Made by a program: the position numbers and the translations under genes
Shown: positions 6,763 through 62,807 of the stretch, one piece after another
Layout: each line of letters starts with the position of its first letter
Position numbering within the stretch: position 1 is the stretch's first letter
Assembly: GCA_016788425.1 (NCBI GenBank)
Contig: JAEURQ010000002.1
Span: 868,001 to 932,000 of the forward strand
Length of the DNA: 64,000 nucleotides
Direction of reading: 5' to 3'
Origin: Chthonomonas sp.
GTDB lineage: Bacteria > Armatimonadota > Fimbriimonadia > Fimbriimonadales > Fimbriimonadaceae
Notes under the pieces: model-generated
What the model saw: the letters and a program-made list of their open reading frames with translations, nothing else
The model's database searches: none
Told to the model about the DNA's origin: nothing

Positions 6763-6821
6763 CCCGAAGCTATTGTATCGCTTTTTAACCCTAAACTCAC
6801 TCCGTTTTGCGATTCTGTTGC

Positions 6822-6827: not shown

Positions 6828-6833
6828 ATAGGC

Positions 6834-7835
6834 ATGAAGTTCACTACCGTAGCCGCTTTCTCCGCCTGCGTTGCCCTCGCTTCGGCAGGCCCCGCCGTGG
6901 ATAAATTCCGCCAAGGCGTTGACTGGTCGCAACGATCGACAAGTTCGACAATCCAGATTACGGGCACCGTAAGCGAGACCATCACCGGCACGGAAACGGG
7001 GTACGTCGCAATCACCAAGGTTTCCGGCTCGATCAACGGCACCGTGAACCTGCAAGACCTTTACCCCACCTTCGCTATCAACACACCGGTATTCTTCACC
7101 GGCACGGAGCAATCTAGCGAACGCGTGCGATGGGCGATCACGTGCCCCGGCGCGGTTGGTCAAACCGTCAACGTCAACGGAGTGAACATCGTGCTGACCA
7201 GCGTAACGGGAACCTACACCGCCGTGTTCAGTTCGATCTCGCCGGTCCGCGACCCCGTCAGCGGCTTGCCGCGCAACGTCAGCCACACCAAGAGCGGGCC
7301 GGATACCAACACGCTGGTCATTCGCGGCAACGTCAACGGCCTGCCTTTCCTCCCCGTGACCGCCACCCAAACCGCAGTGGAATACGATGGCTTTAGCGGC
7401 GGAGCCGGACTCGGCCTCATTCAGGGCGTCGCGACCCTCCAGGGCGCGGCCAACTCGGCCGGCCTTGCAATATCGGTACGGGCAAACGACCAAACCTTTA
7501 CCGCGACCACCGCCACCGACGGTAGTTGGTGGGTCATCACGCCGTTCGCCGGAACGCATAATGTGCGCACCAAGTTGCCGACTGGACTCACCCGGCTCTC
7601 CGCGAATGTGGCCCTGAGCACCGGTACGCCGAGCCTCGCGTTGACCTACCTGAACGGCGATTGCGACAATAATGACATCGTGGACATTGGCGACTACTCG
7701 GTGCTCGCCGCCGCGTTTGACGCCACGCCAACCGATGCCAACTGGAACGTTGCGGCGGACCTCAATCGCGACCAGATCGTCGATATTGCCGACTACAGTT
7801 TGCTGGCCGGGAATTTTGATGTCGTCGGCGAATAG
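6834..7835 (+). CDS. Secreted protein with C-terminal dockerin-like domain
   Basis: A 333-residue exported protein of unknown function. A signal peptide spans residues 1-19 (MKFTTVAAFSACVALASAG, probable cleavage after AxA-like SAG). The middle is Thr/Gly/Val-rich, consistent with beta-sandwich folds. About residues 245-263 read like a bacterial Ig or carboxypeptidase-regulatory-like repeat (SVRANDQTFTATTATDGSWW). The C-terminus holds two EF-hand-type dockerin segments: DCDNNDIVDIGDYSVLA (from about 280) and DLNRDQIVDIADYSLLA (from about 312). ATG 6834 is chosen because it gives a clean signal peptide; an in-frame TTG lies 27 nt upstream. The 3' end overlaps the next gene by 17 nt. Confidence 0.8.
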   Translation: MKFTTVAAFSACVALASAGPAVDKFRQGVDWSQRSTSSTIQITGTVSETITGTETGYVAITKVSGSINGTVNLQDLYPTFAINTPVFFTGTEQSSERVRWAITCPGAVGQTVNVNGVNIVLTSVTGTYTAVFSSISPVRDPVSGLPRNVSHTKSGPDTNTLVIRGNVNGLPFLPVTATQTAVEYDGFSGGAGLGLIQGVATLQGAANSAGLAISVRANDQTFTATTATDGSWWVITPFAGTHNVRTKLPTGLTRLSANVALSTGTPSLALTYLNGDCDNNDIVDIGDYSVLAAAFDATPTDANWNVAADLNRDQIVDIADYSLLAGNFDVVGE

Positions 7836-47158: not shown

Positions 47159-47926
47159 TTAGCTGCGCTTGCGTCGCAGAAGAGCCACGGCGCCGATGGC
47201 GAGGGCAGCAATGCTGCTCGGCTCGGGCACGGCGGTTTCGGTGAAGCGAACCAGGTTAAAGGTCACGCTGCTGTCTTGAGGGGTTGTTGCGTTTTGGATG
47301 ATCGGCTGGAAGTAGAAGCCAAGTTCCATTTGCGGATCGTACATCGGGCCGCCCCAGTTACCGTTGATCCACGGCGACTGGTAGCTACCAAAGGTCAGGC
47401 GTTGCACTGAGTTCGCACCAGCAAAGTGATATTCCAGGCTCATTCGGACCGTGGTACCGAGCGCGTAGCTCGCGCCTTGGGCAACGAAGTCGTGACCCGG
47501 CAGCACCCAGTCGGCGCTGGTTTGGATCGCGGTTTGCGTCGGGCTGTGGCTCACGTAGTACTGCGACTCGGGGCGGAAGCCTCGGCTGTTGTCGTACTTC
47601 ATGAGAAGACCAGCTTCCACGCGGAAGCTTGAGCTCATGGTCATGTCCCACTCAAGCGTAAAGCTCTTGCGACCATTAATTTGAGCCTTCGTCACGCCGC
47701 CGTCGCTCGACAGCCAAGCTGCGTAGCGCTCGCCGTACTGTTCGCCGCCTTGCACCGGAGCTTGGTTAGCGATCGACATCGTGGTCGACGGGAATGCACC
47801 CGAGTTGGAGAACGTACCAGTGGTGTTGGAGAACAACGATTCCACCTTGTAGCCGTTAATCGAAACAGCGTGAGCACTTGTAGCAAGGGCGACACTGCCA
47901 ATCATCATCAAAGTTGCTTTTTTCAC
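47159..47926 (-). CDS. PEP-CTERM secreted protein, paralogue of the 48176-49372 protein
   Basis: A 255-residue exported protein of a family I do not recognise. The signal peptide is residues 1-21 (ends AHAVS). The mature domain (22-225) aligns along its length with that of the neighbouring dockerin-ended gene: both have YGER, a KxFTLEW or KDFSIEY strand, QTSADW, and SPWINGNWGGP followed by MELG.YFQP. The C-terminus is a PEP-CTERM tail: AVPEPSS, hydrophobic run, RRKRS. The start is GTG with AGAGGAATATT before it. A LacI-type operator lies 72 nt upstream. It may be a surface carbohydrate-binding protein; this is inference. Confidence 0.8.
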   Translation of the reverse strand: MKKATLMMIGSVALATSAHAVSINGYKVESLFSNTTGTFSNSGAFPSTTMSIANQAPVQGGEQYGERYAAWLSSDGGVTKAQINGRKSFTLEWDMTMSSSFRVEAGLLMKYDNSRGFRPESQYYVSHSPTQTAIQTSADWVLPGHDFVAQGASYALGTTVRMSLEYHFAGANSVQRLTFGSYQSPWINGNWGGPMYDPQMELGFYFQPIIQNATTPQDSSVTFNLVRFTETAVPEPSSIAALAIGAVALLRRKRS

Positions 47927-47997
47927 AATATTCCTCTGTGTAGCCGGCCTCGCCCTTACGGGCCGCCGGACCCTCTCTTTACGGCAATTGAACCTTA

Positions 47998-48011
47998 CTG
48001 AAACGGTTCAG
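47998..48011. promoter_or_regulatory. LacI-type operator upstream of the PEP-CTERM paralogue
   Basis: CTGAAACGGTTCAG, a near-palindrome with a central CG. On the minus strand it lies 12 nt after a TAGAAT -10 candidate, so near the transcription start of the 47926 gene. It matches the sites at the GH94 and lacI genes. Confidence 0.8.
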
Positions 48012-48102
48012 TTGCTTGTTTCTATTCTATCGCGAGTTATGACAAAACGGTGAATTTTAGGGAGAATCCCGTAATATTGCGTGCTTGGCCTTGTCACAAA
48101 TT

Positions 48103-48141
48103 AAGGCCCGCCTTTGCACAAGGGGTGTGCGGGCGGGCCTT
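48103..48141 (-). terminator. Hairpin terminator after the dockerin-ended paralogue
   Basis: Arms AAGGCCCGCC (48103-48112) and GGCGGGCCTT (48132-48141) with a 19-nt loop, then TTAATTTG on the minus strand. It lies 35 nt after the stop codon and may work bidirectionally. Confidence 0.65.
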
Positions 48142-48175
48142 TGAGGTTACTGCAGGGGAACCTGCAATCTCCTGC

Positions 48176-49372
48176 TTAGGGGGTGTCGTCGCCGAGATCG
48201 AACGCAGCGGCAAGACCGGCGTAGTCGGCGATGTCAATGATCGAGTCACCGTTCAGGTCGGCGGCTGCGTTCCAGTTTCCGCTCGACGGTTCTGCATCAA
48301 ATGCGGTGGCCAGAGCCGAGTAATCAGCAATGTCCACGATCCCGTCGTTCACGATGTCACCGTTCGGCAACGTGAAGTTCAGGTTCGATGCGCCGTTGTT
48401 GAGCACCATCGTTGCCTTGCGCTTCAGCCAAGCTAGACCGCCGTCAGCGATCACGGTGTACGTGCCGTTGGCGAGGGCCGTGTTGAAGCTGTAGCCGCCG
48501 CTCGCGTTGAGCGTGCCGCTGGCCGTGCCGACCTGCGTGAGACCGCTATAGATGGTGAAGTTCACCGTGCGACCATTGACGGCTTGCGACCACGTATTGA
48601 GGCCAACCGTACCGCTGACGGTCGGCTGACCGCCAAGCGTGCCCGTGAAGCTAATCACGTTGATGGCGCAAGTGGTGTTGTGGTTCGGATTCGCGGCTTC
48701 CACCAGAGGTTGGAAGTAGATGCCGAGCTCCATTTCGTCGTCGTAGACCGGGCCGCCCCAGTTGCCGTTAATCCACGGCGAGTAGAACCAGGTGCCATCG
48801 GCATTGCGGTAGCCAAGGCGTTGGACCGACGTCATCGGTGCGGCGTCAATGTAGTCGTATTCAAACTTCATGTGCACGACTTGGTTGTTCAACAGAGTTC
48901 CACCGTCCGCAGCGAAATCGTAGAACGGAAGGCACCAGTCCGCCGAGGTTTGGATAACCGGAGCTTCGATTTGCGGCTTGAACTTCGCGTAGTATTGCGA
49001 GGTCGGGAAGTACTGGTTCGGGCCCGGGTTGCGGACGCTGTATTGGAACAGCAAGCCACCCTCCACGTCGCGCTGAGCCGCTGCGTCGGTGGTCGTGTGC
49101 ATCGAATACTCAATCGAGAAGTCTTTCTTGCCGTTGATCTTAGCTCGGGTGAGGCTATCCGCCGAAAGCCAAGCGATGAACCGCTCGCCGTACGTGTTGT
49201 TGGCCGTATTGTTCTGGTTCAGAATCTGCATCGTGACCGACGGATAGGTGCCGGAGTAAGAGAAGGTTCCGGTGTTGTTGTTCCAGCCGTTCTGCACGAC
49301 GAACGAATTGATTTGCGCGACCGCTGCAGTGGCGCATGTGGCGAGCAGACAAAGGGCTCCTAATGTTCTCAT
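48176..49372 (-). CDS. Secreted protein with dockerin-like C-terminus, paralogue of the 47159-47926 protein
   Basis: A 398-residue exported protein. The signal peptide is residues 1-20 (ends AVAQ). Residues 21-240 are homologous to the adjacent PEP-CTERM protein (shared YGER, QTSADW, SPWINGNWGGP and MELGIYFQP). A carboxypeptidase-regulatory-like module follows (about 245-320, TVSGTVGLNTWSQAVNGRTV), then two dockerin-like EF-hands: DIVNDGIVDIADYSALA and DLNGDSIIDIADYAGLA. The start at ATG 49372 has GAGG upstream; the longer upstream frame is not coding. One clear operator copy and one weaker copy lie before the start, tying it to the LacI regulon. Confidence 0.82.
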   Translation of the reverse strand: MRTLGALCLLATCATAAVAQINSFVVQNGWNNNTGTFSYSGTYPSVTMQILNQNNTANNTYGERFIAWLSADSLTRAKINGKKDFSIEYSMHTTTDAAAQRDVEGGLLFQYSVRNPGPNQYFPTSQYYAKFKPQIEAPVIQTSADWCLPFYDFAADGGTLLNNQVVHMKFEYDYIDAAPMTSVQRLGYRNADGTWFYSPWINGNWGGPVYDDEMELGIYFQPLVEAANPNHNTTCAINVISFTGTLGGQPTVSGTVGLNTWSQAVNGRTVNFTIYSGLTQVGTASGTLNASGGYSFNTALANGTYTVIADGGLAWLKRKATMVLNNGASNLNFTLPNGDIVNDGIVDIADYSALATAFDAEPSSGNWNAAADLNGDSIIDIADYAGLAAAFDLGDDTP

Positions 49373-49403: not shown

Positions 49404-49417
49404 CTGAATCGGTTCAG
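49404..49417. promoter_or_regulatory. LacI-type operator upstream of the dockerin-ended paralogue
   Basis: CTGAATCGGTTCAG fits CTGAAnCGnTTCAG. On the minus strand it begins 8 nt after a TACAAT -10 candidate, covering the expected transcription start. Confidence 0.78.
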
Positions 49418-49473: not shown

Positions 49474-50502
49474 CTAAAGCTTGCCGCCGAGTCGCTTCGC
49501 AACACTGGCGCGTAAACGCACCAGCGGGCGTCGCAGGCGCTGCACCAATCGCATAAACGGCGATTCCCACCGGACGAAGTAGTCTTGCACCCGCTTGGCT
49601 TCCCCGCTCGAATTCGACTCCGTGGGCGCGGAGCGGCGAAGCACTGCGACCAGCCGCTCGTCCCCGACAATGAGTTCCAGACCCGCTCGCGCGGCCAGCG
49701 CTTGCAAGGACCGGAGCGTGAAGTGGTAGGTGTGCGCGATGTGGAAGTACCGCCCCGCCTCGCGATAGTCATCCAGCGCGCGCAGCGTGCCCGGCACCTC
49801 GATGAACATCACGCCGTCGGGGCTGAGCAAGTTTGCCCAGTTTTGCAGCTCGGCGAGCGGATCGAGCGTGTGCTCTAGCACGTGCCGCGCGATCAATAGG
49901 TCCGCACCGGATAAATCAAAAAGCGCATCGGATGCGCCGGCCCGTAGGTCGAGCCCATCCGCGCGACCGCGCTGCAGGTAGTCATCGCCAAAGTCGCATC
50001 CGGCAACTTCCCACCCCTCCGCGCGAAACGCGCTAAGGACGCCGCCCGCGCCACACCCGATCTCGAGCACGCGGCCAGGGCGCAAACCTGGCGCCCGCAG
50101 GCGTAGGTAAGCAAGAATGCCCTTCCCTTCGGCCTGCTGATTGGCAAAGAACTCGTCGGAGGCTTGCTTCGCGCCGAAGTAAAGTTCGCGGTAGTAGTCG
50201 CGGTAGAACAGCGCTTGGCTGGCGGCGTCGAACACCGGGCTCGACCACAACAGCCCGGTCTGCGGGCAGAGGTAGGTCGAAATCGGAAAGCCGTAGCGAT
50301 CGCGCTCGCCGACCAGCGTCGCGGTTTCGCGCGGCGCGCCACTCACGCAGTCCACCTCCACCAGGTTCAAAATCCCTTCCGCGAGCGCCGCATCAACGCG
50401 CTCTTTGGCCGCTCGCTGGGTCGCATTGAGGGCGATGAGCGGCTCGGCCGAGGCACGAAGAGATTGCAAAAGCGGCATGTCCGCCCGCGAGTCTACCGTC
50501 AC
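49474..50502 (-). CDS. SAM-dependent methyltransferase
   Basis: A 342-residue class I methyltransferase of the Methyltransf_23 type. The SAM-binding motif I is VLEIGCGAGGVL (about residues 144-155), with GCDFGDDYLQRGR as a later acidic loop, DLLIARHVLEHTLDPLAEL (post-motif region) and DGVMFIEVPG. The N-terminal about 90 residues precede the fold and may bind substrate. The GTG at 50502 overlaps the malG-type stop by 4 nt, and this fixes the start: longer readings run antisense-like through the permease. It is the last gene of the GH94-transport operon. Substrate unknown, possibly a glycan or lipid. Confidence 0.83.
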   Translation of the reverse strand: MTVDSRADMPLLQSLRASAEPLIALNATQRAAKERVDAALAEGILNLVEVDCVSGAPRETATLVGERDRYGFPISTYLCPQTGLLWSSPVFDAASQALFYRDYYRELYFGAKQASDEFFANQQAEGKGILAYLRLRAPGLRPGRVLEIGCGAGGVLSAFRAEGWEVAGCDFGDDYLQRGRADGLDLRAGASDALFDLSGADLLIARHVLEHTLDPLAELQNWANLLSPDGVMFIEVPGTLRALDDYREAGRYFHIAHTYHFTLRSLQALAARAGLELIVGDERLVAVLRRSAPTESNSSGEAKRVQDYFVRWESPFMRLVQRLRRPLVRLRASVAKRLGGKL

Positions 50503-51323
50503 TTCATCCCGGTCATCGAGATTCCTTTCACGAAATATCGCTGACCAAGAATAAAGATGATGATGAGCGGGATCGTGACCAGCACGGTGCCCGGCATGAG
50601 CAGGTGCCACTGCGCGTTGAACTGAGAGTTGAACGTGCTGAGGCCGAGTTCCAGCGTCTGCTTGTCCACGTCGTTCAGGTACAGCAGCGGACCCATGAAG
50701 TCGCGCCACGCACCGATGAACGAGAAGACCCCGACCGTCGCGATGACCGGTCCACAGAGCGGGAACAAAATCCGCCAAAAAATCTGCATGTGGCTCGCAC
50801 CGTCAAGCGTCGCCGCCTCGTCGAGGTCCCGCGGCAGGCCCATCATGAACTGCCGGATGAGGAAGATGTTGAACGCGCCGCCGCCCAGATACGCCGGGAC
50901 GATGAGCGGCAGGTACGTGTTGATCCAGTGCAGATGCTTGAACAGCACAAACGTCGGGATCAGCGTGACCACGCCCGGCAGCATCATCGTGCTGAGTAGC
51001 AACACGAACAAGCGGTCGCGGCCTTTGAACTTGAGCCTCGCAAACGGATAGGCGACCAGCGCGGCGCTGAGCACCGTGCCCAGCGTGGCCAGAGTCGCGA
51101 TCAAAAGCGTGTTTTGGAAGAACCGCCCGAAGCTCATGTTCGGGTTCGAAAGCACCTCCTTGTAGTTGTTGAGCGTCGGGTTTTGCGGAGGCGACCACAC
51201 GCTGGTCGTCGAGATTTCGCCCGCCGTTTTGAGGCTCAGCGAAATGGACATGAGGAACGGCGCGAGGAACACCAAACTGCCCGCGATGAGCAGTATCGTG
51301 ACCAAGATGCGGGTGGCTCTCAC
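50499..51323 (-). CDS. ABC sugar transporter permease, MalG type
   Basis: A 274-residue inner-membrane permease with six predicted helices. The EAA loop that contacts the ATPase is RDLDEAATLDGASHMQIFWR (about residues 166-185). It pairs with the upstream SBP-MalF fusion to form the carbohydrate uptake (CUT1) channel. The ATG overlaps the upstream stop by 4 nt. No ATPase gene is present in the window, so a shared MsmX/MalK-like ATPase elsewhere must energise it. Confidence 0.93.
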   Translation of the reverse strand: MRATRILVTILLIAGSLVFLAPFLMSISLSLKTAGEISTTSVWSPPQNPTLNNYKEVLSNPNMSFGRFFQNTLLIATLATLGTVLSAALVAYPFARLKFKGRDRLFVLLLSTMMLPGVVTLIPTFVLFKHLHWINTYLPLIVPAYLGGGAFNIFLIRQFMMGLPRDLDEAATLDGASHMQIFWRILFPLCGPVIATVGVFSFIGAWRDFMGPLLYLNDVDKQTLELGLSTFNSQFNAQWHLLMPGTVLVTIPLIIIFILGQRYFVKGISMTGMK

Positions 51324-53731
51324 TTGGCCTCCGCTTCGTAAAACACGTACTTGTGGAGCTTAAACTGCACCGCCGTGAAGATCATGATGATGACGAACAG
51401 AATCCAGGCGAGCGCCGAAGCGTAGCCCATGCGCAGGTTCGTAAACGCCTGATCGTACAGGTGCAGAATGTAGAACCGGGTGGCGTCGTTCGGACCGCCG
51501 CTTGTCATGACAAAGGCCGAAGTAAAGGTCTGGAAGCTGCCGATTACGCCCGTGATCAGGCTGAAAAAGAGCGACGGTGTGAGCAGGGGGAAGGTGATGC
51601 GCAGGAACTTGCGGACCGGTCCGGCGCCATCGATTGTTGCCGCCTCGTAATACATCTCGGGGATGCCCTGCAGGCCCGCCAGGAGAATCACCATGCCGCC
51701 GCCAAGACCCCACAGCGACATCACGATAAACGCGGGGAGCGCGAGTTTCTCGTTGCCGAGCCAGTTGGCCGGTTCGGTGCTGCCAGTCACCGAGGTCAGC
51801 AGCGAGCCCAGCCCGAACAGGTTGCGCGTGCCGTCGGGCCCGTAGATCACGGCGTTGAGCAAGCCGCCATCGGGCTGGAAAATCTTCCGCCAAATGAGCG
51901 CCGTCGCCACCACGCTGGCCAGACTCGGCAAGTAGAAAAATGTGCGGTACAGCGCAATGCCGCGCACTTTCGCGTTGAGCAAAAGCGCCAGCATCAGCGA
52001 GAACATGATGCCGAGCGGCACGGAGACCACCGTGTAGATTCCGGTAACCGCGAGGGTCTTCCAGAAGCGCGGATCGCCGCCGCCCGCCTCGGTAAAGTTG
52101 CCCACGCCACGCCATTTAGCCGGCGTAATGATGTCCCAATCGGCGAAGCTCATGATGAGCGAGAGCACCATCGGGCCGATCGTAAACACGAGCATCCCGA
52201 TGATCCAGGGCGTGAGAAACTTGAACGCCGCCCGATTGTCCTGTCGCTCGCGGCGCGTCATCTTCCACTTCGCGTCCGGGCGAAACACCCACGTGGCGAT
52301 GCCCGCGAGCAAAAGCGCTCCCCCAATAAGGCCCGCCGACCAGTTGATCTTTGGTAACTCCTGCTGACGCAAAATCTCGTTGAGCCGCGCCGTGGCGTTG
52401 GCTTGACCTTCTTTGAGACCGGCTTCGGCCCCCATCGAGCCGTTGAAAATAACCTCGGTTTTGGAGGCGACAAAGCCGTTGATTTCGCTCCAATAATCCG
52501 CACTCGGGGTGAAGACCACGTACGGAATCGCACGATCCGTGAGGATTCGCGACGGCGGATACTTCTCGGCTCGCGGGGCGTCGGCGGCCGGAATCCACGG
52601 TTGAGTCACGGCCAGGTGCTGAATCGCGGGCTGAGCCAATCCGGCCCGAGCCATGTCTTTCATGCCGACTTCGCCGGCCATAAACTGGGTGAGCAGCCAA
52701 GCTTCCTTGGGATGCTGCGTCGTGTTGACGATCGCGTAACCCGACCCGCCCGTCGGCATCGCGCGAGTGATCTTGCCGGTGCCGTCTTGGTATCCCGGCG
52801 CGAGCGCGATATCCCACTCAAAGAACTCTTTGGAACCCGGCACCAGGGTCTTGCGGAAGTTCGGCACCTCCCAGATTCCGCTCTGGAACATGGCGACCTT
52901 TTGCTGCAAGAACAGGTTCGAGCTGGACGATTGCAGCACCGAGGTGATTTCCTGCGGGTTGGGCATCCAGCCGCGCTTGTTGGCCAGGTCCGCCGCCCAC
53001 TGGAACGACTTGATCATCTGCGGATCGGCGTAGTTGAGCTTGGTCGGCTGCTCATCGTTATTCGCGTAGCGCATGCCCTGCGAAAACACGACCACGTCTA
53101 CCCACGCCATCATCCAGCCCGGGACGAAGCCCCATTGGACGGGTTTGCCCGCCTTGTTTCGCTTCGTCAGTTGTTGCATCACCCACAAGAAATCTTTCTC
53201 GCGAAGCTCTGGCCGCGGCTCCCAACTCCAGGTCCAGGAACCATCAGGATAGGGGATTCCGGCCTCGCCGAAGAGGCGCTTGTTGTAGTAGATCAGCCCG
53301 ATCGGGGCAATGTCGCGCGGCAACACGTACATGCTGCCTTGATAAGTGAAAGCGCGCCGAATCGGCTCGTAATAATCCTCAACCTTAAAGCCCGGAACGT
53401 CGCCATAGAATTGCTCAAGCGGCAACAGCACGCCGCGCTTGGCGAACTTTTGATAGAACGGCGGCTCCATCATCGCCACGTCGGGCGCGACTTCGGCCGC
53501 GTACTGCGTCAGAAGCTTCTGGGTGTAGATGCCGTACGGAACGTTTTCAAGTTTGACCTTGATATCGGGGTACTTGGCTTCGAATTTGTCGACCGAAGCG
53601 CGGATCACCTTCAGCGCTTCGTCCCCGTCCCACACCACAAATCGGATGGTGACGGGGGCCGACACGGCGTGCGCGGCGGCCATCAACAGAACCCAAAGGA
53701 GACAGAGTTTGCCGATGACGCCGCGAGCCAT
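51320..53731 (-). CDS. Fusion of solute-binding protein and MalF-type permease
   Basis: An 803-residue protein that joins two normally separate parts of a CUT1 sugar importer. After a signal peptide (about 1-25), residues 26-450 are an extracellular solute-binding protein family 1 domain: VTIRFVVWDGDEALKVIRAS, the acceptor-type RDIAPIGLIYYNKRLF and TGGSGYAIV. A membrane helix (about 465-483, GLIGGALLLAGIATWVF) then crosses inward, and a MalF-type permease (about 500-803) follows, with EAA loop MYYEAATIDGAGPVRKFLRI. The additional helix gives the correct topology for both halves. ATG 53731 lies 1 nt after the GH94 stop. Confidence 0.92.
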   Translation of the reverse strand: MARGVIGKLCLLWVLLMAAAHAVSAPVTIRFVVWDGDEALKVIRASVDKFEAKYPDIKVKLENVPYGIYTQKLLTQYAAEVAPDVAMMEPPFYQKFAKRGVLLPLEQFYGDVPGFKVEDYYEPIRRAFTYQGSMYVLPRDIAPIGLIYYNKRLFGEAGIPYPDGSWTWSWEPRPELREKDFLWVMQQLTKRNKAGKPVQWGFVPGWMMAWVDVVVFSQGMRYANNDEQPTKLNYADPQMIKSFQWAADLANKRGWMPNPQEITSVLQSSSSNLFLQQKVAMFQSGIWEVPNFRKTLVPGSKEFFEWDIALAPGYQDGTGKITRAMPTGGSGYAIVNTTQHPKEAWLLTQFMAGEVGMKDMARAGLAQPAIQHLAVTQPWIPAADAPRAEKYPPSRILTDRAIPYVVFTPSADYWSEINGFVASKTEVIFNGSMGAEAGLKEGQANATARLNEILRQQELPKINWSAGLIGGALLLAGIATWVFRPDAKWKMTRRERQDNRAAFKFLTPWIIGMLVFTIGPMVLSLIMSFADWDIITPAKWRGVGNFTEAGGGDPRFWKTLAVTGIYTVVSVPLGIMFSLMLALLLNAKVRGIALYRTFFYLPSLASVVATALIWRKIFQPDGGLLNAVIYGPDGTRNLFGLGSLLTSVTGSTEPANWLGNEKLALPAFIVMSLWGLGGGMVILLAGLQGIPEMYYEAATIDGAGPVRKFLRITFPLLTPSLFFSLITGVIGSFQTFTSAFVMTSGGPNDATRFYILHLYDQAFTNLRMGYASALAWILFVIIMIFTAVQFKLHKYVFYEAEAK

Positions 53732-53732
53732 G

Positions 53733-56150
53733 CTATTCGATTGCCAAAGCTTCAATGGTGCGAGTTTGACCTAATCCGGAGGCGGCGATAGGGCCGCTGT
53801 GCGGTTTTCCGTCCACGCGAATCTCATGCCGTTTGCCCGGCTCGATCCGAATGTTAAAGGTATCGCCCCGGAACTTGCGCACAAGGCTGATTTCGCCAAG
53901 CGCAGGAATGTCAGTCGGTTCGATCACCAATCCGGCAAAGGTCGCGCGAACGCCGATAATCCAGCGCACCGCGGTGCGACGCATCCACGCTGCCGAACCC
54001 GTGTACCACGTCCAGCCGGCGCGTCCTTCATAGGGCGAATCCGGTCCATCCACGTTGCCCGGCATTACGAATGGCTCGGCTTCGTAGCTGTCTACATCGC
54101 GCAGACCGCGGGTCGGCAACATGCCCTGATACAGTTCGTAGGCGGTGGCCATTTCGCCGCGCTGGGCAAAAGCCTCGATCGCCCACGTGCTCGCGTGGCT
54201 GTATACGCCGCCGTTTTCGCGCATGCCCGGCGCGTAGCGAGTGATGTAGCCCACGTAGGGATCCACATTTCGGAACGCGGGCGCGAGGAGCAAGGCACCG
54301 TACGGTTTCACCAACCGATCGCGCACGTTATCGAGAGCACGGTCAATGCGCTCGGGCGACCCAATTCCGGTAATGGCGGCCCACGTTTGCGGGTTCAGGA
54401 ATATGCTGCCTTCGGCGCATTCGGCGGCCCCAAACGGACGGCCATTGTCGCTGGTTCCAGCGATGTACCAATCGCCATCCCAGCCAAACTCCTCCACGGC
54501 GGTTTTGAGCGCGGCGGCGCGACTGCGATACTCGGCGGCCTTCGTTGAATCGCCACGGGTGTCAAGCACTCCGGCCATCCCGCCGAGAATCTGATAGAGG
54601 AACATCGCGAGCCAAACCGACTCGCCCTTGCCGTCGATGCCGGTGTGGCTGAGGCCGTCGTTCCAATCGCCGGCGCCGATGAGCGGCAGCCCACGCTCCG
54701 ATTGCCGTGACAGACTACGATCAATCCCGCGCAAGCAGTGATCGAGCAACGTTCCAGATTCGCTACTGAACTGGCGAGTTGCCCGATCGAGGTAGCGGCA
54801 GGTTTGGTCGAGCGCGCCAAGATCGGCGGTTTCTTCTAGGTAAAGCAATGTGCCAAATGCGAGCCAAAGGCAGGTGTCGCTGTGGTGGCTTTCGGCCACG
54901 ATATCGCTGTTGGGGTGCCACCAGTGCCGCACGCCGCCATCGATGAACATCGCTTCCGCGTGAATGATCAGCTGCTTGAGCGTGAGTTCGGGCTCAGTTT
55001 CCAGATAGACCAAGCTATCCTGCAGTTGGTCGCGGTATCCGTACGCGCCGCCCTGCTGATAGTAGGCCGAGCGGGCCAGAATCCGCCCGGTTTCCGCCTG
55101 ATACGGCAGCCAAGCGTTGTTCATCAGGTCGAACTCGGCGTCGCCCGTCTCAATCTTCATCTGCCCGTTGCGGGCGCGGAAGTAGGCCTGCGTGTCCGAG
55201 AGCCGGGCCTCTACTGTGCTCACCGCGCATTGACCGGCGACGGCTTGGGCGTCTTCTTGGGTGCGTTCCATGCCGAGAGTCACGGCAAAGGTGTGCTCCT
55301 CGCCGGGACCTAGTTCGATCTCGGCGGTAAACGCGCCCACCGGGTCGTCCCAACGGCCCGTCACGCGCGGCGTGGTGCCATCGGTGACGGCCTGAGGGCG
55401 AGCCAAGTTGCCGGCGCGGCCCACAAACTGAAGCTTATCGGTGAAGAACTTGAGACCAGCCAAACCCTCCACGTGGAGGTAGGCCACGCTCGGCGCTTCG
55501 GGCGCTTCGCGGGTGCCTTCGCTCAGGCCGCGCCGCTTCCACGCAAACAGGGTTTTGGGTTCGGTATCGAGACTCACGAACAGGCGATGGAACTCGCGGT
55601 GCCATTCCGATTGGTTGCCGAGAAACCATTCCAGGTAGCCGCCAACGCGATACGTGCGGCGGGCGCTAGTCGAGTTGCGGATGGTGACCAGCCAGTGCTC
55701 GTGGTCGCCCTCGGTCGGGACGAACACGGTGTGCTCGGTTTCGCATGTGGCGAACGAGCGGCGATACGTCATGTAGCCGAGTCCGAATTCGACGTCTTCT
55801 TTTTGCGCCGGGCGGCGTGTCGGAGCGAAGGTCGTGGACTCCACGTCACCCGAGCCCAGATCGGTGACAAAGATGCTGCGACCGTACTGGTCGAGCACCA
55901 GGTCTTGCTCCCAGCGCGTAAGTCGCTGAAGTTGGCTGTTGCCGACCCATGAGAATCCACCGCCCATGTGGCTGATCACCGCGCCGTACGAACCATTCGA
56001 AAGCACGTTCGCCCACGGGCGAGGCGTCAGGATATTGCGCAAGTGGAAAGCGCCGGTCTCGGGGTGAAAGGCGCCGTACGGGTGCTTCCCCTTAATGAAC
56101 GGGGTTTTCACTACGGCTGAGTATAACTGAGAGCTCACATCCAGACTCAC
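53733..56150 (-). CDS. GH94-family glycoside phosphorylase
   Basis: An 805-residue cytoplasmic phosphorylase that splits oligosaccharides with phosphate to give a sugar 1-phosphate. N-terminal blocks include PYGAFHPETGAFHLRN and GSYGAVISHMGGGFSW. The catalytic acid Asp is expected in IGAGDWNDGLSHTG (about residue 495), and GKGESVWLAMFLYQ and TRYAPGMRENGGVYSHA follow. The GDWNDG form resembles NdvB, chitobiose and 1,2-beta-oligoglucan phosphorylases. Specificity is not determined by these motifs. The start is GTG 56150 with GGAGG upstream. It heads an operon with the importer genes and has a LacI-type operator over its -35 region. Confidence 0.92.
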   Translation of the reverse strand: MSLDVSSQLYSAVVKTPFIKGKHPYGAFHPETGAFHLRNILTPRPWANVLSNGSYGAVISHMGGGFSWVGNSQLQRLTRWEQDLVLDQYGRSIFVTDLGSGDVESTTFAPTRRPAQKEDVEFGLGYMTYRRSFATCETEHTVFVPTEGDHEHWLVTIRNSTSARRTYRVGGYLEWFLGNQSEWHREFHRLFVSLDTEPKTLFAWKRRGLSEGTREAPEAPSVAYLHVEGLAGLKFFTDKLQFVGRAGNLARPQAVTDGTTPRVTGRWDDPVGAFTAEIELGPGEEHTFAVTLGMERTQEDAQAVAGQCAVSTVEARLSDTQAYFRARNGQMKIETGDAEFDLMNNAWLPYQAETGRILARSAYYQQGGAYGYRDQLQDSLVYLETEPELTLKQLIIHAEAMFIDGGVRHWWHPNSDIVAESHHSDTCLWLAFGTLLYLEETADLGALDQTCRYLDRATRQFSSESGTLLDHCLRGIDRSLSRQSERGLPLIGAGDWNDGLSHTGIDGKGESVWLAMFLYQILGGMAGVLDTRGDSTKAAEYRSRAAALKTAVEEFGWDGDWYIAGTSDNGRPFGAAECAEGSIFLNPQTWAAITGIGSPERIDRALDNVRDRLVKPYGALLLAPAFRNVDPYVGYITRYAPGMRENGGVYSHASTWAIEAFAQRGEMATAYELYQGMLPTRGLRDVDSYEAEPFVMPGNVDGPDSPYEGRAGWTWYTGSAAWMRRTAVRWIIGVRATFAGLVIEPTDIPALGEISLVRKFRGDTFNIRIEPGKRHEIRVDGKPHSGPIAASGLGQTRTIEALAIE

Positions 56151-56194: not shown

Positions 56195-56208
56195 CTGAAC
56201 CGTTTCAG
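56195..56208. promoter_or_regulatory. LacI-type operator in the GH94/lipoprotein divergent promoter region
   Basis: CTGAACCGTTTCAG, the reverse complement of the 47998 site, lies between GH94 (minus) and the small lipoprotein (plus). It covers the -35 positions of TAGAAT on the minus strand and of TATAAT (56220-56225) on the plus strand, as expected for a repressor controlling both directions. Confidence 0.85.
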
Positions 56209-56538: not shown

Positions 56539-56552
56539 CTGAAACGGTTCAC
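56539..56552. promoter_or_regulatory. LacI-type operator abutting the lacI start
   Basis: CTGAAACGGTTCAC ends 2 nt before the lacI ATG at 56555. It differs from the consensus only in the last base. A repressor bound here would block its own gene, either at initiation or as a roadblock to transcription from the lipoprotein gene. Confidence 0.8.
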
Positions 56553-56554: not shown

Positions 56555-57610
56555 ATGACAAAGCGAATTACCATAGCGGACGTAGCTGAACGAGCGGGCG
56601 TGGGGAAAGTCACGGTCAGCTACGTGCTCAATGGTCGAGCCGACGAAATGCGGATTTCCAGCCAAACCCAAGAGCGCATCTTGGCCGCGGCCAAAGAGCT
56701 GGATTACCGTCCGAATGGCGTGGCCCGCATGCTCTCCCGCAAGCAGAGCGATATCGTGGCCGTCATCTTCCAAGACCCGAACTACTTCTCTCTCGGCTCC
56801 ACGTTTCTCAACGAGGTCCTGCACGGCGTTTGCCGCGAGTGCGTAGAACAGAAGCTCGACCTGATGCTTCACACCCGCCCCTCGGAGAACGTGTTTGACG
56901 AAGCCAACGCGCTTTCGGATGGCCGCATTGATGGCCTGCTGGCGCTTCGCGATGAAGATGATGCGACCCTCCGCGCGCTGATTCGCCGCAAGTTCCCGCT
57001 CGTGCTGTTCTTCAGCCGACCGCTCGATCCCGACATCGCCTATGTCGATTGCGACAACTATACTGGTGGCAAAATCGCCGCCCAGCATTTGCTCTCTCTG
57101 GGTCACAAGCGGCTGGGCATGGTCGTCGGGCCGCAAAAATCGGTGGACTCCGCGGACCGCTACCAAGGATTTGCCAGCGTGGTGCAAGCCGCTGGGCACA
57201 GCATTGACCCGGCGCACATTGTGCCGTTCAATTCGCCCAAGGCGAGCGCCGAAGATTTCGCCGCCTTGCTCAAAAAGAAGGATCGCCCGACGGCGTTCTT
57301 CGTGTGGAGCGATGACGTAGCCTTCGAATGTATGAAGGTCGCCAAGGGCATGGGGCTTCGATTGCCCGAAGATTTATCGCTCGTGGGGTTCGACAGTACT
57401 CCCGCGTGCGATTTGGTCGAGCCAAAACTCACCAGTATTCGTCAACCCGTGGAGGACATGGCCCGTGCGGCCACTCGGATTCTCGCGGCCATTATTCGCG
57501 AGGAGGAAGGCGAGGCGACACACCTCGTGTTTCCGCCTCAACTTGTCGTTCGGGCGTCAACTGCCGCTCCGAGCGATGCTCGCCATTCTATTCAAGAGGA
57601 CATCATCTAA
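56555..57610 (+). CDS. LacI-family transcriptional regulator
   Basis: A 351-residue LacI/GalR-type regulator. The DNA-binding helix-turn-helix is TIADVAERAGVGKVTVSYVL (residues 6-25), with the hinge helix around NGVARMLSRKQSD. The periplasmic-binding-protein-like sensor domain spans about 62-340, including YVDCDNYTGGKIAAQHLLSL and LSLVGFDSTPACDLVEPKL, typical GalR/LacI blocks. CTGAAnCGnTTCAG sites near its own start and near four other transcription units (GH94, lipoprotein, two secreted paralogues) make it the likely repressor. The inducer is presumably an oligosaccharide. The next gene begins directly at the base after its stop. Confidence 0.93.
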   Translation: MTKRITIADVAERAGVGKVTVSYVLNGRADEMRISSQTQERILAAAKELDYRPNGVARMLSRKQSDIVAVIFQDPNYFSLGSTFLNEVLHGVCRECVEQKLDLMLHTRPSENVFDEANALSDGRIDGLLALRDEDDATLRALIRRKFPLVLFFSRPLDPDIAYVDCDNYTGGKIAAQHLLSLGHKRLGMVVGPQKSVDSADRYQGFASVVQAAGHSIDPAHIVPFNSPKASAEDFAALLKKKDRPTAFFVWSDDVAFECMKVAKGMGLRLPEDLSLVGFDSTPACDLVEPKLTSIRQPVEDMARAATRILAAIIREEEGEATHLVFPPQLVVRASTAAPSDARHSIQEDII

Positions 57611-58417
57611 ATGCAACAACGACGTGCGTTCACTCTCATTGAACTTCTCGTGGTCATCGCCATCATCGCGATCCTGGCCGCGATCCTGTTCCCCGTTTTC
57701 ACCAAGGCCAAGGAGGCAGCCAAGGTCACCGTGTCCATCAGCGGCATGAAGCAAGTCGGCACGGCTTGGTTTTTGTACAACAGCGACAACGACGACCAGT
57801 TCTCGCCGCGCCGAATCGCGGCCAGTTCGGCCGCCGGCAACGGCGAGCTTTCCTGGAAGCAGATCATTTTCCCGTACGTCAAGAGCATTGACGTGTTCCA
57901 GGACAAGGTGAACCCCGCCGCCAAGTATCCCGACGACACCAGCGACACCGGCTACCGCGCGAGCCTCGGTCAAGTCGTGGTTGGTCCGCGCATGGCCCGC
58001 GGATACGCCTATTACGATATGGCGTTCCTCGTGAACAGCGACTTCAACTCGCGCAACTATTCGCCGAGCCAAGTCGAAAACCCGGCCGACGTCATCACCA
58101 TCTTCGAACACAAGCGCGCTTGGGTGGATGGTGGCCCCTGGCTTAACTGGAATCTCAACGAAATCGACCCTATCCTCGGCGGCCGCATCGGCAACCGATT
58201 TGGTTATCCGTGGGGCGGAAAGAAGTGGGAAGAAAAGGCGATGATTGTCAGCTATGTGGACGGTCACGTGAAGCGCGCCACCACCGGCTCCATCTGTGGT
58301 CGCCCGGACTCGCTGAACCAGTGGAACTACATCAAGAACAACCTGGCCACCGACGCCCTTGGCGACATCACGTGGATGGACACCTATTGCTCGACTCGCC
58401 CGGCCGCCGTTCAGTAA
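57611..58417 (+). CDS. Prepilin-like protein of H-X9-DG type
   Basis: A 268-residue type IV pilin-like protein. The N-terminus QQRRAFTLIELLVVIAIIAI is a class III prepilin leader with Ala instead of Gly before the Phe, followed by the long hydrophobic helix. The C-terminal part carries SYVDGHVKRATTG, the H-X9-DG-type motif of the prepilin-like proteins that are numerous in Planctomycetes and Armatimonadota. It lies directly between lacI and GH144, with 0- and 4-nt gaps, so it belongs to the glucan operon. It might localise or display machinery for glucan capture, but its role is unknown. Confidence 0.9.
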   Translation: MQQRRAFTLIELLVVIAIIAILAAILFPVFTKAKEAAKVTVSISGMKQVGTAWFLYNSDNDDQFSPRRIAASSAAGNGELSWKQIIFPYVKSIDVFQDKVNPAAKYPDDTSDTGYRASLGQVVVGPRMARGYAYYDMAFLVNSDFNSRNYSPSQVENPADVITIFEHKRAWVDGGPWLNWNLNEIDPILGGRIGNRFGYPWGGKKWEEKAMIVSYVDGHVKRATTGSICGRPDSLNQWNYIKNNLATDALGDITWMDTYCSTRPAAVQ

Positions 58418-58421: not shown

Positions 58422-59705
58422 ATGATCCCTTCCCTGCTCCTCGCTGGCCATCTCGCGATGGCCGCTCCTCAAAGCCTGACCGGACAAGCACTGCTCGACG
58501 ATCTCTCCAAGAAATCTGTCCAGTACTTTTGGGATCAGTCCCATCCGAAGACGGGCTTTACGCGCGATCGCGCGGCCAACGAGGGCACGCAGGGACCCAA
58601 CAACGTCAGCAGCATCGCCGCCACCGGCTATGCTCTTTCGGCCTATGCCATCGGCGCTCAACGCGGCTGGCTCAATCGGGATGAGGCGCGCAAGCGAGTC
58701 ATCACCACGATCACCAGCGTGCTGAACCTGCACTCAGGCAAGAACGGCTGGTACTACCACTTCGTGGACTGGCAAACTGGCCAGCGCGTGTGGAACTGCG
58801 AAGTCTCCAGCATCGACTCGGCCATCTTCTTTGCTGGCCTGACCGTCGCGGAGCGCGGATTCAACGATCCCAAGATCTCGAAGCTCGCCGAGCAAGTGTT
58901 CTCCCGCGTGAACTGGAACTGGATGCTCACCGATGGTGGCGCTCAGCCGAACAGCCTGTACTTCAATCACGGTTGGAAACCCGAGGGCTTCCTCAACTAC
59001 CGTTGGTCGGGCTTCTGCGAGATGCTGTTCCTCTACATTCTCGCGTACGGTCATCACCCCACCATGCCGCAGGGCTCGTGGAACGCGTTTGCGCGGCCAT
59101 TGGTGACCTACAACACCACCGAGTTGCTCGCCGGTGGCCCGCTGTTTATGCACCAAATGACGCAGGGCTTTTACGATCTCAAGGAGTATCGCGACGAGCT
59201 CGGCTACGACTACTTTGTCGAAGGACGCAACGCCACGCTCGCCAACCGCCAGTACTGTCTGAACAACCCGCTCGGGTTCACCGGCTACGGCAGCAACATT
59301 TGGGGGCTGTCGGCGTGCGACATCCCGGGCGGATACGGCGCGCAGGGCGCGCCCGGCTGGATCAGCGACAACGGCACCTTGGCGCCGGCGGCGGCCGTGG
59401 CGAGTGTGATCTACACTCGCACGCTCAGCATCCGCGCGGCCGAAGCTTATCTGCAAAACTATCCGGCCAGCTACGGTCGCTACGGGTTCACAACTGGCCT
59501 CAACCCCAGCCAAAACTGGCGCTCGCCCGACGTGATTGGGATTGACCTGGGCCAAATGATGCTGAACATCGAGAACGCGCGCGACGGCATTGTTTACAAG
59601 TGGACGATGGGAAATCCGAAGACGAGAACCGCCTACGACAAGATCAAGCTTCGCCGGACGGCGGAAGGCGTTTGGGAAACTCGCCCGCTGCGCCTGACAA
59701 ACTAG
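58422..59705 (+). CDS. GH144/glycoamylase-fold glucanase, exported
   Basis: A 427-residue exported hydrolase with an (alpha/alpha)6-barrel of the PF10091 glycoamylase type, best matching GH144. A short signal peptide (1-15, ends AMAA) is followed by characteristic blocks: YFWDQSHPKTGFTRDRA, VSSIAATGYALSAYAIG, WNCEVSSIDSAIFFAG (with the Ser/Asp cluster), GYGSNIWGLSACDIP, and SDNGTLAPAAAVASV. Characterised GH144 enzymes are endo-beta-1,2-glucanases, so beta-1,2-glucan (or cyclic glucan) is the preferred substrate guess. Its ATG lies 4 nt after the stop of the prepilin-like gene. Other PF10091 members act differently, so specificity is not proven. Confidence 0.87.
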   Translation: MIPSLLLAGHLAMAAPQSLTGQALLDDLSKKSVQYFWDQSHPKTGFTRDRAANEGTQGPNNVSSIAATGYALSAYAIGAQRGWLNRDEARKRVITTITSVLNLHSGKNGWYYHFVDWQTGQRVWNCEVSSIDSAIFFAGLTVAERGFNDPKISKLAEQVFSRVNWNWMLTDGGAQPNSLYFNHGWKPEGFLNYRWSGFCEMLFLYILAYGHHPTMPQGSWNAFARPLVTYNTTELLAGGPLFMHQMTQGFYDLKEYRDELGYDYFVEGRNATLANRQYCLNNPLGFTGYGSNIWGLSACDIPGGYGAQGAPGWISDNGTLAPAAAVASVIYTRTLSIRAAEAYLQNYPASYGRYGFTTGLNPSQNWRSPDVIGIDLGQMMLNIENARDGIVYKWTMGNPKTRTAYDKIKLRRTAEGVWETRPLRLTN

Positions 59706-60298: not shown

Positions 60299-60523
60299 TT
60301 GCGAGATGAGCTTTACCTTGACAGCCCGGTGAATCAGCCGGACCGGGAAGCTCATTTAGACGAAGCCCTGAACCAAGCTTGGGTTCAGGGCTTTCGTTGC
60401 GTCGTCGTCGAGATCGCGATGGACGACTCCGACTTTGTGTCGCTGGCCAGGGCTCGTCGGGCCGAGTTTCTGCCGATCCAATGCGGACTGGCCGAAGTTC
60501 GGTTTCGAGCCCCGCGCGACTAG
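60299..60523 (+). CDS. Possible small protein, 74 residues
   Basis: A TTG-initiated frame of 74 residues with GC-rich third codon positions. It contains VQGFRCVVVEIAMDDSDFVSLARARRAEF, and no domain is recognised. A stable hairpin (60364-60392) lies within it, which argues for a terminator of the upstream gene instead. The frame lacks a good ribosome-binding site and overlaps the end of the converging PEP-CTERM gene by 4 nt. It is listed as uncertain. Confidence 0.3.
   Translation: MRDELYLDSPVNQPDREAHLDEALNQAWVQGFRCVVVEIAMDDSDFVSLARARRAEFLPIQCGLAEVRFRAPRD
60364..60394 (+). terminator. Hairpin after the SnoaL-like gene
   Basis: Arms AGCCCTGAACC (60364-60374) and GGTTCAGGGCT (60382-60392), loop AAGCTTG, then TTTC. 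The U-tract is short, so terminator activity is moderately likely. Alternatively it is only part of a small coding frame. Confidence 0.5.
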
Positions 60524-61488
60524 TTCTTTCGGCGTCGGAGCAGCAACGCCGCGCCCGCGGCCAAGGCGATCATCGAAGCCGGTTCGGGCACCATTGCCAA
60601 GTAGCCCATGTTGTGGCCGGTGGCAAAGTTGCCGTTCGAAATCCAGAGACCGCTCGAGAATCCGAATCGCTCAATCTGGTTGGATTGGTGACCCGAGACA
60701 AACATCTCGTTACCGTCCGGGCTAAACGCAATTCCGAGAGCCGAACTGGAACTTGCAACCGCCGTATGTCCGGTCGGCATATAATTCGCGTCGAAGTCAA
60801 TTCGGCGCACCTGTCCGCTTTGGAACACAGTCGCGTAGATGGAGTTTCCGCGACGCGCCATTTGGTGCAATGCGCCACCGCCAATGCTAACGATGGTTGT
60901 GCCTCCAAACGAGTTGGCCAAGATATCCGTCACGCGGAGTTGCCCACCCGCAGTGGTCTCCCACAACTTCTTTCCGTCCGGTGACACCCAAGCATCGCGC
61001 ACGTCGCCACTGGCCACGCCACCGATATCTACGTAGCCCGAACCCGTGTCGCGGTAGCGGCGCGTGCCATTGCTCACCGTGGTTTGGAACAAGTCGCCGT
61101 TCGGAGCGAAATTGCCGCCATGGAAGCCCTGGTAAGCAGGCGACGATTGCGTAGCGATGGTGGTCGGCGCGCCCAGCGACGAGCCATTCCAGGCCATTTT
61201 TTGGACCGAACCCTGGCCAATCGTGTTGCCGTGCCGGTTCATCACATACAGGTTGTTGTTGCGATAAACAAGACCTGCCGGGTCGTGAAGCGCGGACGCC
61301 GCCACACCAGGGCCGGCAATGGCGGGCGCGTTATTGCTGGCAAAGTTGTAACGCTGAATGCCTCCGTAGGCAGCCGTGTTGCCGCCTTGCGAAAAGGCGT
61401 TGGTCTCAGCCGCGAAGATTGAGAAGCCGGCAAAGGCAAACTGCCCGAGAATCAGAACAGATGATGAGAGAATAAATTTGTAGGTCAT
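60520..61488 (-). CDS. PEP-CTERM protein with beta-propeller-like repeats
   Basis: A 322-residue exported protein. The signal peptide is about residues 1-20 (ends FAFAG). The body contains several NHL/SMP-30-like propeller motifs: PAGLVYRNNNLYVMNRHGN, GGNFAPNGDLFQTT, DAWVSPDGKKLWET and GIAFSPDGNEMFVS. The C-terminus is the PEP-CTERM sorting tail MVPEPASM, hydrophobic segment and RRRKN. Such propellers often bind surface or matrix components. It lies downstream of, and in the same direction as, the micro-ORF and CHRD genes, but a terminator separates them. Confidence 0.85.
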   Translation of the reverse strand: MTYKFILSSSVLILGQFAFAGFSIFAAETNAFSQGGNTAAYGGIQRYNFASNNAPAIAGPGVAASALHDPAGLVYRNNNLYVMNRHGNTIGQGSVQKMAWNGSSLGAPTTIATQSSPAYQGFHGGNFAPNGDLFQTTVSNGTRRYRDTGSGYVDIGGVASGDVRDAWVSPDGKKLWETTAGGQLRVTDILANSFGGTTIVSIGGGALHQMARRGNSIYATVFQSGQVRRIDFDANYMPTGHTAVASSSSALGIAFSPDGNEMFVSGHQSNQIERFGFSSGLWISNGNFATGHNMGYLAMVPEPASMIALAAGAALLLRRRKN

Positions 61489-61792: not shown

Positions 61793-62371
61793 TCAGGTGC
61801 CTTTTCGGCGACGGCAGAGTAGCAATGCTGCTCCTGCAATCCATGCACTGAACATGCCGGGTTCGGGGACCGGTGCCAAATTCGCGCGAAGTTCACCCCC
61901 TGTAAAAGCCGAAGAGCGAACATTAAAATAGGCCCGGTATGCGAGCATCCTTCCTAGCAGCTGATGGTAAGCGCGAAAGGTCGTACCGCCACTTGCAGCA
62001 ATAAACGCCGGGTTGTATGTTGATGATTGCGCGAGACTGTAGGTCATGTCCATCGACCCGCTCTGAACTCCCAGCGGAAATCCGCTAAAACTGGGTGCCT
62101 CAGTAGCCGCAAGGCCATTTGTGGCGTTGCCATTTGAATCATGAATTTGAGCCCCTGTCGTATTGCCTGCTAGACCCGCAAAGTTTAGGCGAATTCGCAT
62201 GGTGTGGATGCTGGTATCCACCACGATGAAAACGTGTCCCGTACCGGTGGACGAATTGGCGGGGACCACTGTTGCTCCGCGAAGGGTTCCGGTGAAAAAA
62301 TATAAGTTTGCTTGAGCCAAGCCGGCGACTTGGACCACCCCAAAGAACAGAAAGACCTTAAAAAACCTCAT
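61793..62371 (-). CDS. PEP-CTERM protein with CHRD domain
   Basis: A 192-residue exported protein. The signal peptide is about residues 1-21 (ends AQAN). The mature part is a CHRD domain: FTGTLRGATVVPANSSTGTG at the start, a VVDTSIHTMRIRLNFAGL strand pair, a later QIHDSNGNATNG loop and a final AYFNVRSSAFTGGELRANL, the typical ending of this fold. The C-terminus PVPEPGM, hydrophobic run and CRRRKGT is a PEP-CTERM tail. ATG 62371 is chosen for the signal peptide; the longer frame upstream is not coding-like. The domain is widespread in extracellular matrix-type proteins of unknown role. Confidence 0.85.
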   Translation of the reverse strand: MRFFKVFLFFGVVQVAGLAQANLYFFTGTLRGATVVPANSSTGTGHVFIVVDTSIHTMRIRLNFAGLAGNTTGAQIHDSNGNATNGLAATEAPSFSGFPLGVQSGSMDMTYSLAQSSTYNPAFIAASGGTTFRAYHQLLGRMLAYRAYFNVRSSAFTGGELRANLAPVPEPGMFSAWIAGAALLLCRRRKGT

Positions 62372-62507
62372 ATCAGACAAAGAGCCAATGCCCTCTCCAT
62401 CTGCATTATAGTGTGCAATTGTCAGAAATCCGCACCTTTGAGTCGAATTTTCTGATGGGTCGGCCTCGGACAATTCCACCACCGCAGGCTTCATAATCGG
62501 AGTTGAC

Positions 62508-62807
62508 ATGACCTTACACGGCGTTGACGTTTACATTTGGTCGGCCGAAACCCCCGACCTACCCAAGGAGCACGGCCCCATGAAGTTGGAGCTCATCTCG
62601 AACCGCGGCACGAAAATTTATCCGGGTCCGGCCCCCGATATCAAGCTGCTGGATTGGCCGCGCTGCCGCTTCACCAGCGACGACGTGGTGACCAACGAGC
62701 AGATTCAGGCGCTGTTGAACGACCTCACCGCCGCCGGCCACACCTGGACGAAGTGCCAAAAGCTCTTCCGCGACAACGGGACGAACCTTTACTCCCAACC
62801 CTATTAA
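62508..62807 (+). CDS. Stand-alone isocitrate dehydrogenase C-terminal-like domain
   Basis: A 99-residue protein. GVDVYIW near the start, then MKLELISNRGTKIYPG (about residues 25-40) and DWPRCRFTSDD (about 49-59), resemble from memory the extra C-terminal domain of Thermus/Rickettsia-type isocitrate dehydrogenases, which has an LISNRGT-like block and an RCRF motif. Here that domain is a separate gene, 19 nt upstream of the catalytic gene. GGAG precedes the ATG. It is probably a partner subunit or stabilising domain of the dehydrogenase. The match should be tested by profile search. Confidence 0.7.
   Translation: MTLHGVDVYIWSAETPDLPKEHGPMKLELISNRGTKIYPGPAPDIKLLDWPRCRFTSDDVVTNEQIQALLNDLTAAGHTWTKCQKLFRDNGTNLYSQPY

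Follow-up and report, generated by a model that had tools for sequence, protein, structure and literature searches.

Two neighbouring genes, A and B, lie on the minus strand of the window (the 64,000-nucleotide stretch of Chthonomonas sp. DNA analysed here) and encode secreted proteins that share a domain of about 210 residues and end in different C-terminal tails (Table 1). BLASTP aligns the two proteins with 103 of 251 residues identical (41% identity, E=5e-59), and the similarity begins within the signal peptide and stops at the onset of the tails. For B, the ATG at 49372 serves as the start codon, and the longer GTG start of the ORF finder is unnecessary. An earlier note on this DNA had described A and B as adjacent paralogues with swapped tails and had listed YGER, QTSADW, SPWINGNWGGP and MELG-YFQP as motifs common to both; both open reading frames and all four motifs were recovered, the latter within the BLASTP alignment. 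The PEP-CTERM end that it had assigned to A is likewise well founded: the protein ends in VPEPSSIAALAIGAVALLRRKRS, in which the PEP motif, the hydrophobic stretch and the basic end are all present, and scores above the cut-offs of both PF07589 (22.9 bits, cut-off 20.7) and TIGR02595 (24.1 bits, cut-off 16). Its reading of the B tail, a carboxypeptidase-regulatory module followed by dockerin-like repeats, also holds, with a weaker score for the first module. Dockerin_1 (PF00404) scores 23.1 bits, just above the cut-off of 22.9, and both this match and the tail consensus contain the duplicated calcium-loop and helix repeat that characterizes type I dockerins, whereas CarboxypepD_reg (PF13620) reaches 16.8 bits, under its cut-off of 32.3.

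Table 1. Genes, protein modules and operator-like sites in and around the A/B locus (window coordinates)
Feature	Position	Strand	Basis
Gene A (255 aa): secreted protein, lectin-like domain, PEP-CTERM tail	47159..47926	-	ORF, translation, PF07589, TIGR02595
Gene A, shared ConA-like domain, about residues 21-230	47237..47866	-	BLASTP vs B, profile hit
Gene A, PEP-CTERM signal, residues 232-254, VPEPSSIAALAIGAVALLRRKR	47165..47233	-	PF07589, TIGR02595
Gene B (398 aa): secreted protein, lectin-like domain, tail with CpD-reg-like and dockerin-like modules	48176..49372	-	ORF, translation, PF00404
Gene B, shared ConA-like domain, residues 20-247	48632..49315	-	BLASTP vs A, AF2 model, fold search
Gene B tail, transthyretin/CnaB-like beta-sandwich module, residues 251-335	48368..48622	-	PF13620 16.8 bits (below cut-off), model
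Gene B tail, dockerin-like duplicated loop-helix module, residues 338-387	48212..48361	-	PF00404 23.1 bits, consensus of 41 tails
Operator-like palindrome CTGAAACGGTTCAG upstream of A	47998..48011		exact TGAAnCGnTTCA at 47999-48010, 73 bp upstream
Operator-like palindrome CTGAATCGGTTCAG upstream of B	49404..49417		exact TGAAnCGnTTCA at 49405-49416, 33 bp upstream
Operator-like palindrome upstream of GH94-ABC operon	56195..56208		exact TGAAnCGnTTCA at 56196-56207, 46 bp upstream
Operator-like palindrome upstream of lacI-pilin-GH144 operon	56539..56552		exact TGAAnCGnTTCA at 56540-56551, 4 bp upstream
ABC sugar-transporter permease	50499..51323	-	PF00528
ABC transporter, solute-binding protein fused to permease	51320..53755	-	PF01547, PF00528
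GH94 protein	53733..56150	-	PF17167, PF06165; PDB comparison
LacI-family regulator	56555..57610	+	PF00356, PF13377
Pseudopilin-like protein (N-methylation motif), between lacI and GH144-like gene	57611..58417	+	PF07963, synteny
GH144-like (SGL-clan) beta-1,2-glucanase homologue	58422..59705	+	PF10091 180 bits; PDB 8xul, 5gzh

The genes next to the two paralogues form a sugar-utilization locus that recurs with the domain. Among the 31 domain-bearing genomes, several of which have contigs too short to show neighbours, pilin-like genes occur near the domain in 22, lacI in 20, GH144-like genes in 18, GH94 in 13 and GH1 in 4. The pseudopilin-like gene (start TLIELLVVIAIIAILAAILFPVF) is kept in the locus in 22 genomes, in most cases with lacI on one side and the GH144-like gene on the other. 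In four genomes (L085:9178-12129, L084, L083 and L032), a protein of about 1000 residues adjoins the domain; one copy matches F5/8 C, CBM11 and a six-hairpin glycosidase, and another has no Pfam match. In the window itself, two further minus-strand genes (60520-61488 and 61793-62509) stand near the locus, one with a PEP-CTERM-like end just above the PF07589 cut-off and the other encoding a CHRD-domain protein whose PEP-like end scores under that cut-off. The best solved relatives of the GH144-like protein are XcSGL (8xul) and CpSGL (5gzh), besides structural-genomics entries named "putative glucoamylase". The SGL-clan residues in XcSGL are E239, F286 and Y367 (PMC12102758), and the window protein aligns E, F and Y at these columns, all three being kept (8xul itself bears an E239Q change at the first). 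In the PDB comparison, other GH94 enzymes match the GH94 protein as well. The cluster around the domain is conserved and probably a beta-1,2-glucan-utilizing one. The earlier note had placed the pair in a sugar context and had named beta-glucans in general; the context holds, through the neighbouring GH144-like, GH94 and LacI genes and one glycanase fusion, and beta-1,2-glucan is the likeliest substrate rather than beta-glucans at large.

A palindrome, CTGAAnCGnTTCAG, precedes each of A and B. Exact TGAAnCGnTTCA palindromes number eight in the 2.67 Mb genome, four of them in the cluster; the genome-wide number alone is no higher than that of a reversed-pattern control, and the count by itself was therefore not used as evidence. 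Position and conservation are more informative. The palindrome adjoins the domain gene in 8 of the 10 domain-bearing genomes of family f1, the two exceptions lying outside the locus, and the sequences thus present the hallmark of a LacI regulon, namely a common palindromic operator before the genes of the cluster that is kept in relatives. A regulon operator at both genes, as proposed earlier, is consistent with this arrangement, and the LacI-family protein of the cluster is presumably the reader of the palindrome. More distant families keep the locus and LacI but lack the motif, which indicates that the operator is family-specific.

The shared domain has no Pfam match, and neither it nor the third tail described below matches a known Pfam or NCBIfam family. 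A domain profile compared with the PDB by sequence gave two chance-level hits only, no sequence match to any catalytic family was obtained, and the domain was not found in the plasmid collection. With a profile of A and B, copies are detected in 10 of the phylum's 291 genomes, and with a wider profile in 31; comparing their profiles shows the close and the distant group to be homologous (probability 98.1%, E=1e-13). A sequence scan of genome contigs found only one close relative, a Lac Pavin MAG with the same tandem pair, in which the dockerin-tailed copy comes first and the PEP-CTERM-tailed copy second. The dockerin-tailed copy of that MAG (L016:1894-2986) is broken across two frames near residue 190, by an assembly error or as a pseudogene. 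The view that this is an unnamed family survives these searches, since neither a match to a known family nor an absence of homology between the members turned up.

Structure prediction with AlphaFold2 from four sequences yielded an all-beta jelly-roll of moderate confidence (pLDDT 75, pTM 0.79). Its best fold match is the archaeal legume-lectin domain 7elv (Z 13.4, rmsd 3.4, 169 residues), and the neighbours returned by Foldseek and VIA-align include legume lectins, SasG-type bacterial lectin domains, PL7 lyases and thrombospondin C-domains. The two-sheet jelly-roll typical of the concanavalin-A-like lectin/glucanase superfamily is found in both the model and the fold search, and the domain is predicted on this basis to have that fold, which accords with the carbohydrate-binding family supposed in the earlier note. 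R64, E104, G106, P149, Y219 and Q221 of B are conserved in more than 90% of lineage-weighted sequences. In one genome, G059 (L082:9072-11369), the domain is followed by a PF10091 GH144-like catalytic domain and then by Dockerin_1; this is the only case of joining to a carbohydrate-active catalytic domain, and in the other genomes the domain stands alone. The best reading of the domain is that of a binding protein of the beta-1,2-glucan locus.

The tails of A and B are genome-wide sorting classes in this genome, which encodes about 50 PEP-CTERM proteins above cut-off, about 40 proteins with a B-type dockerin-like tail, and one exosortase (PF09721, 169.9 bits). An exosortase is present in 30 of the 31 domain-bearing genomes. 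The dockerin-like tail has, over 41 tails, the consensus WL.r...NGDvn.DnivDIADYS.LAaAFD...W...ADLNgDgiVDIADYtiLA.nFD.vGd. In the window, the same tail also occurs on unrelated ectodomains at 6795-7835 (+) and 28835-30271 (-). The dockerin-like repeats noted earlier thus mark a genome-wide class; docking of the cellulosomal kind was considered for them and rejected. Cohesin PF00963 has no match in the own genome at E<=1 and none in any genome of families f1 or f19 searched at E<=0.001, and the B tail would for this reason not be a cellulosome-type cohesin-docking module.

Across the family, 45 domains carry 19 PEP-CTERM tails, 17 dockerin tails, 6 short half-dockerins and 3 copies of another C-terminal domain. 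The half-dockerins, each a single loop-helix repeat of about 30 residues, end the domain in the family f3 genomes G163, G164, G171, G172, G174 and G175 (L088-L093). The profile search had been suggested as a way to find members and their tails, and differently tailed members are indeed widespread: exactly one PEP-CTERM copy and one dockerin-tailed copy occur in 12 genomes, and G078 has one PEP-CTERM copy and one third-tail copy, so that all 13 genomes with two separate copies pair a PEP-CTERM tail with some other tail. Three lineages contain such pairs, namely G000/G109, a single genus with nine of the genomes, and G059. One early divergence between a PEP-tailed and a dockerin-tailed clade was rejected, the AU test excluding the dockerin-tailed domains as one clade (p 1.2e-5), in a tree whose deep nodes are weakly supported and in which the support for the long copy of G078 as an orthologue of B is 54/44. 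Therefore, the two-tail pair arose repeatedly or has been kept by domain exchange, and under either history the domain is not tied to one tail, yet the two-tail state is maintained. A second tandem pair with swapped tails lies elsewhere in the own genome (C4:430300-432800; L106, L151), where a dockerin-tailed copy stands beside a PEP-CTERM copy; the ectodomains of this pair (430.5-432.7 kb) are 69% identical over 221 residues and belong to a family unrelated to the A/B domain. Same-tail tandem duplicates are also present in the own genome.

The tail of the second copy follows the tail repertoire of its genome. Of the 23 genomes in which PF00404 matches at least four times, 22 have a dockerin-tailed domain copy, half-dockerins included; the 8 genomes with no more than two matches have none (Fisher p 1e-6 by genome and 6e-4 by genus, relatedness being only partly controlled). 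The long domain copy of G078, G106 and G107 ends instead in an unnamed C-terminal domain of about 150 residues (for example, L080:6652-7830, L081:7268-8446 and L035:7737-8927), which has no profile similarity to the B tail. These three dockerin-poor genomes, the only domain-bearing ones rich in the third tail, hold 63, 49 and 52 copies of it, respectively, and seven other genomes tested hold 0-1. The third tail occurs in at least 48 genomes, nearly all of families f1 and f2 among the matches listed, and in all 40 proteins examined it reaches to within 12 residues of the C-terminus. In 10 of these 40 proteins the ectodomain is homologous to that of a dockerin-tailed protein of the own genome (the figure for PEP-CTERM proteins being 3), some of the ten sharing repeat-rich Ig-like regions; homologous cargo thus bears unrelated tails in sister genera. 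Lineages have exchanged tails, and the dockerin-like tail and the third tail look interchangeable as judged from their distribution.

Taken together, these observations are best explained if A and B are secreted proteins that bind glucan without acting as enzymes, belong to a beta-1,2-glucan locus under LacI control and are sent to different places by two genome-wide tail classes, a reading to which we assign a probability of about 60%. Close to the cell, the ConA-like jelly-roll of both proteins would bind the polysaccharide or oligosaccharides derived from it, the GH144-like enzyme would cut beta-1,2-glucan, the ABC transporter would import the resulting oligosaccharides, and the GH94 enzyme would phosphorolyse them after import. 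The PEP-CTERM signal and the exosortase may deliver A to the envelope or the extracellular matrix, by analogy with the PEP-CTERM/exosortase (EpsH) sorting system (PMC1569441). B would travel by the house tail of its lineage, which in this genus is the CpD-reg-like and dockerin-like dyad, with a receptor other than a recognizable cohesin; this tail may be a second signal, for delivery or for retention. Some sister genera would instead use the unnamed domain of about 150 residues as their house tail, the cargo having been re-tailed accordingly. As a guess, one copy might capture polysaccharide in the matrix and the other at the cell surface. A broader proposal, which we put forward only tentatively, is that proteins of Armatimonadota are exported or attached to the surface by one or more as yet undescribed routes that recognize large house tails. 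The dyad of CpD-reg and dockerin-like modules would then be functionally equivalent to the 150-residue domain, cargo would be re-tailed when a lineage changes its route, and of the lectin pair one member would be retained on this route and the other on that of the exosortase.

Several parts of this reading have competitors. The ConA-like fold includes hydrolases and lyases, and the near invariance of R64, E104, Y219 and Q221 means that the domain could be catalytic; it might be a PL7, GH16 or DUF1080-type enzyme acting on the same glucan, and PL7 alginate lyases are among its fold matches. We regard such an enzyme as unlikely, considering that the domain resembles no catalytic family in sequence, that the L082 fusion protein has a catalytic domain besides it, and that the locus already encodes endo-acting and phosphorolytic enzymes. 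The substrate, in turn, might be cellulose, laminarin or a mixed-linkage glucan if the GH144-like and GH94 enzymes had shifted in specificity. GH94 includes cellobiose, cellodextrin and laminaribiose phosphorylases, and some of the loci carry GH1 genes; a GH1 specific for beta-1,2-glucan has now been described (PMC12369401), however, and the conserved SGL-clan residues of the GH144-like protein also make another glucan improbable.

The tails invite two further doubts. Both classes are abundant, which would make random capture easy, and tandem same-tail duplicates occur in the own genome too, so that tail changes might be neutral by-products of duplication and of the shuffling of C-terminal modules instead of marks of two destinations. 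Chance of this kind would hardly be expected to pair PEP-CTERM with another tail in 13 of 13 two-copy genomes from three distinct lineages, nor to make the long-copy tail track the tail repertoire of the genome, and we give it little credence. Still less probable is a diverged or non-canonical cohesin as the docking partner of the dockerin-like tail, which would place B in a cellulosome-like complex. The duplicated DxNxD loops and the above-threshold PF00404 score speak for such docking, and PF00963 does detect cohesins, in 33 other genomes of the phylum; against it stand the cohesin-free results for the own genome and for families f1 and f19, and the replacement of the dockerin tail on homologous cargo by the unrelated third tail. 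Delivery of A and B by two sorting classes remains our preferred reading.

On this reading, the domain is a candidate non-catalytic binding family for beta-1,2-glucans, and a literature search of limited coverage found no binding module for these glucans. The family also amounts to a natural swap experiment, in which one ectodomain is carried on two or three sorting tails and unrelated tails replace each other on homologous cargo in sister genera. The role of dockerin-like modules in cohesin-less genomes, long open, becomes directly testable, and comparing genomes with and without each tail could reveal the machinery that reads it. Tails that are both genome-wide and exchanged suggest that some routes of protein sorting still await description. 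Of the elements involved, PEP-CTERM sorting, dockerin modules, GH144 and GH94 are already known. What is new is the domain family, its tie to the locus, the recurring two-tail pairs, a cohesin-free dockerin-like tail class at such scale in the genus, the unnamed third tail and the tail exchange; a literature search with partial coverage found no paper on any of these points.

Compared with the ConA-like lectin/glucanase superfamily (legume-lectin-type and SasG-type), the domain is alike in its predicted all-beta jelly-roll (Z about 12-13 over 170-190 residues) but differs in having no sequence-level family match, and this superfamily has, to our knowledge, no established link with beta-1,2-glucan loci. 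Type IX secretion C-terminal domains, MYXO-CTERM and GlyGly-CTERM each place one genome-wide tail on dozens of unrelated secreted proteins. The tails described here are likewise genome-wide and carried by dozens of unrelated secreted proteins, but they differ in sequence, and two classes replace each other between sister genera. The B tail resembles cellulosomal type I dockerins and X-module-dockerin dyads in its duplicated loop-helix repeats after an Ig-like module, and the tail model, whose dockerin part is of low confidence (pLDDT about 40), has a Clostridium thermocellum scaffoldin ternary complex (4fl4) as one of its weaker fold matches; in contrast to the cellulosomal systems, the genome has no cohesin detectable with PF00963, and the tail is exchanged with an unrelated domain on homologous cargo. 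Protein A conforms to the PEP-CTERM/exosortase (EpsH) system (PMC1569441) in its motif and in the accompanying exosortase, whereas here the same ectodomain also bears a second, unrelated genome-wide tail. Finally, the sophorooligosaccharide clusters of Listeria innocua and Streptomyces griseus (PMC12369401) likewise combine a sugar-specific ABC transporter with GH94, SGL-type, GH3 or GH1 enzymes, and to this arrangement the present locus adds tailed secreted lectin-like proteins, a pseudopilin-like gene and a LacI palindrome.
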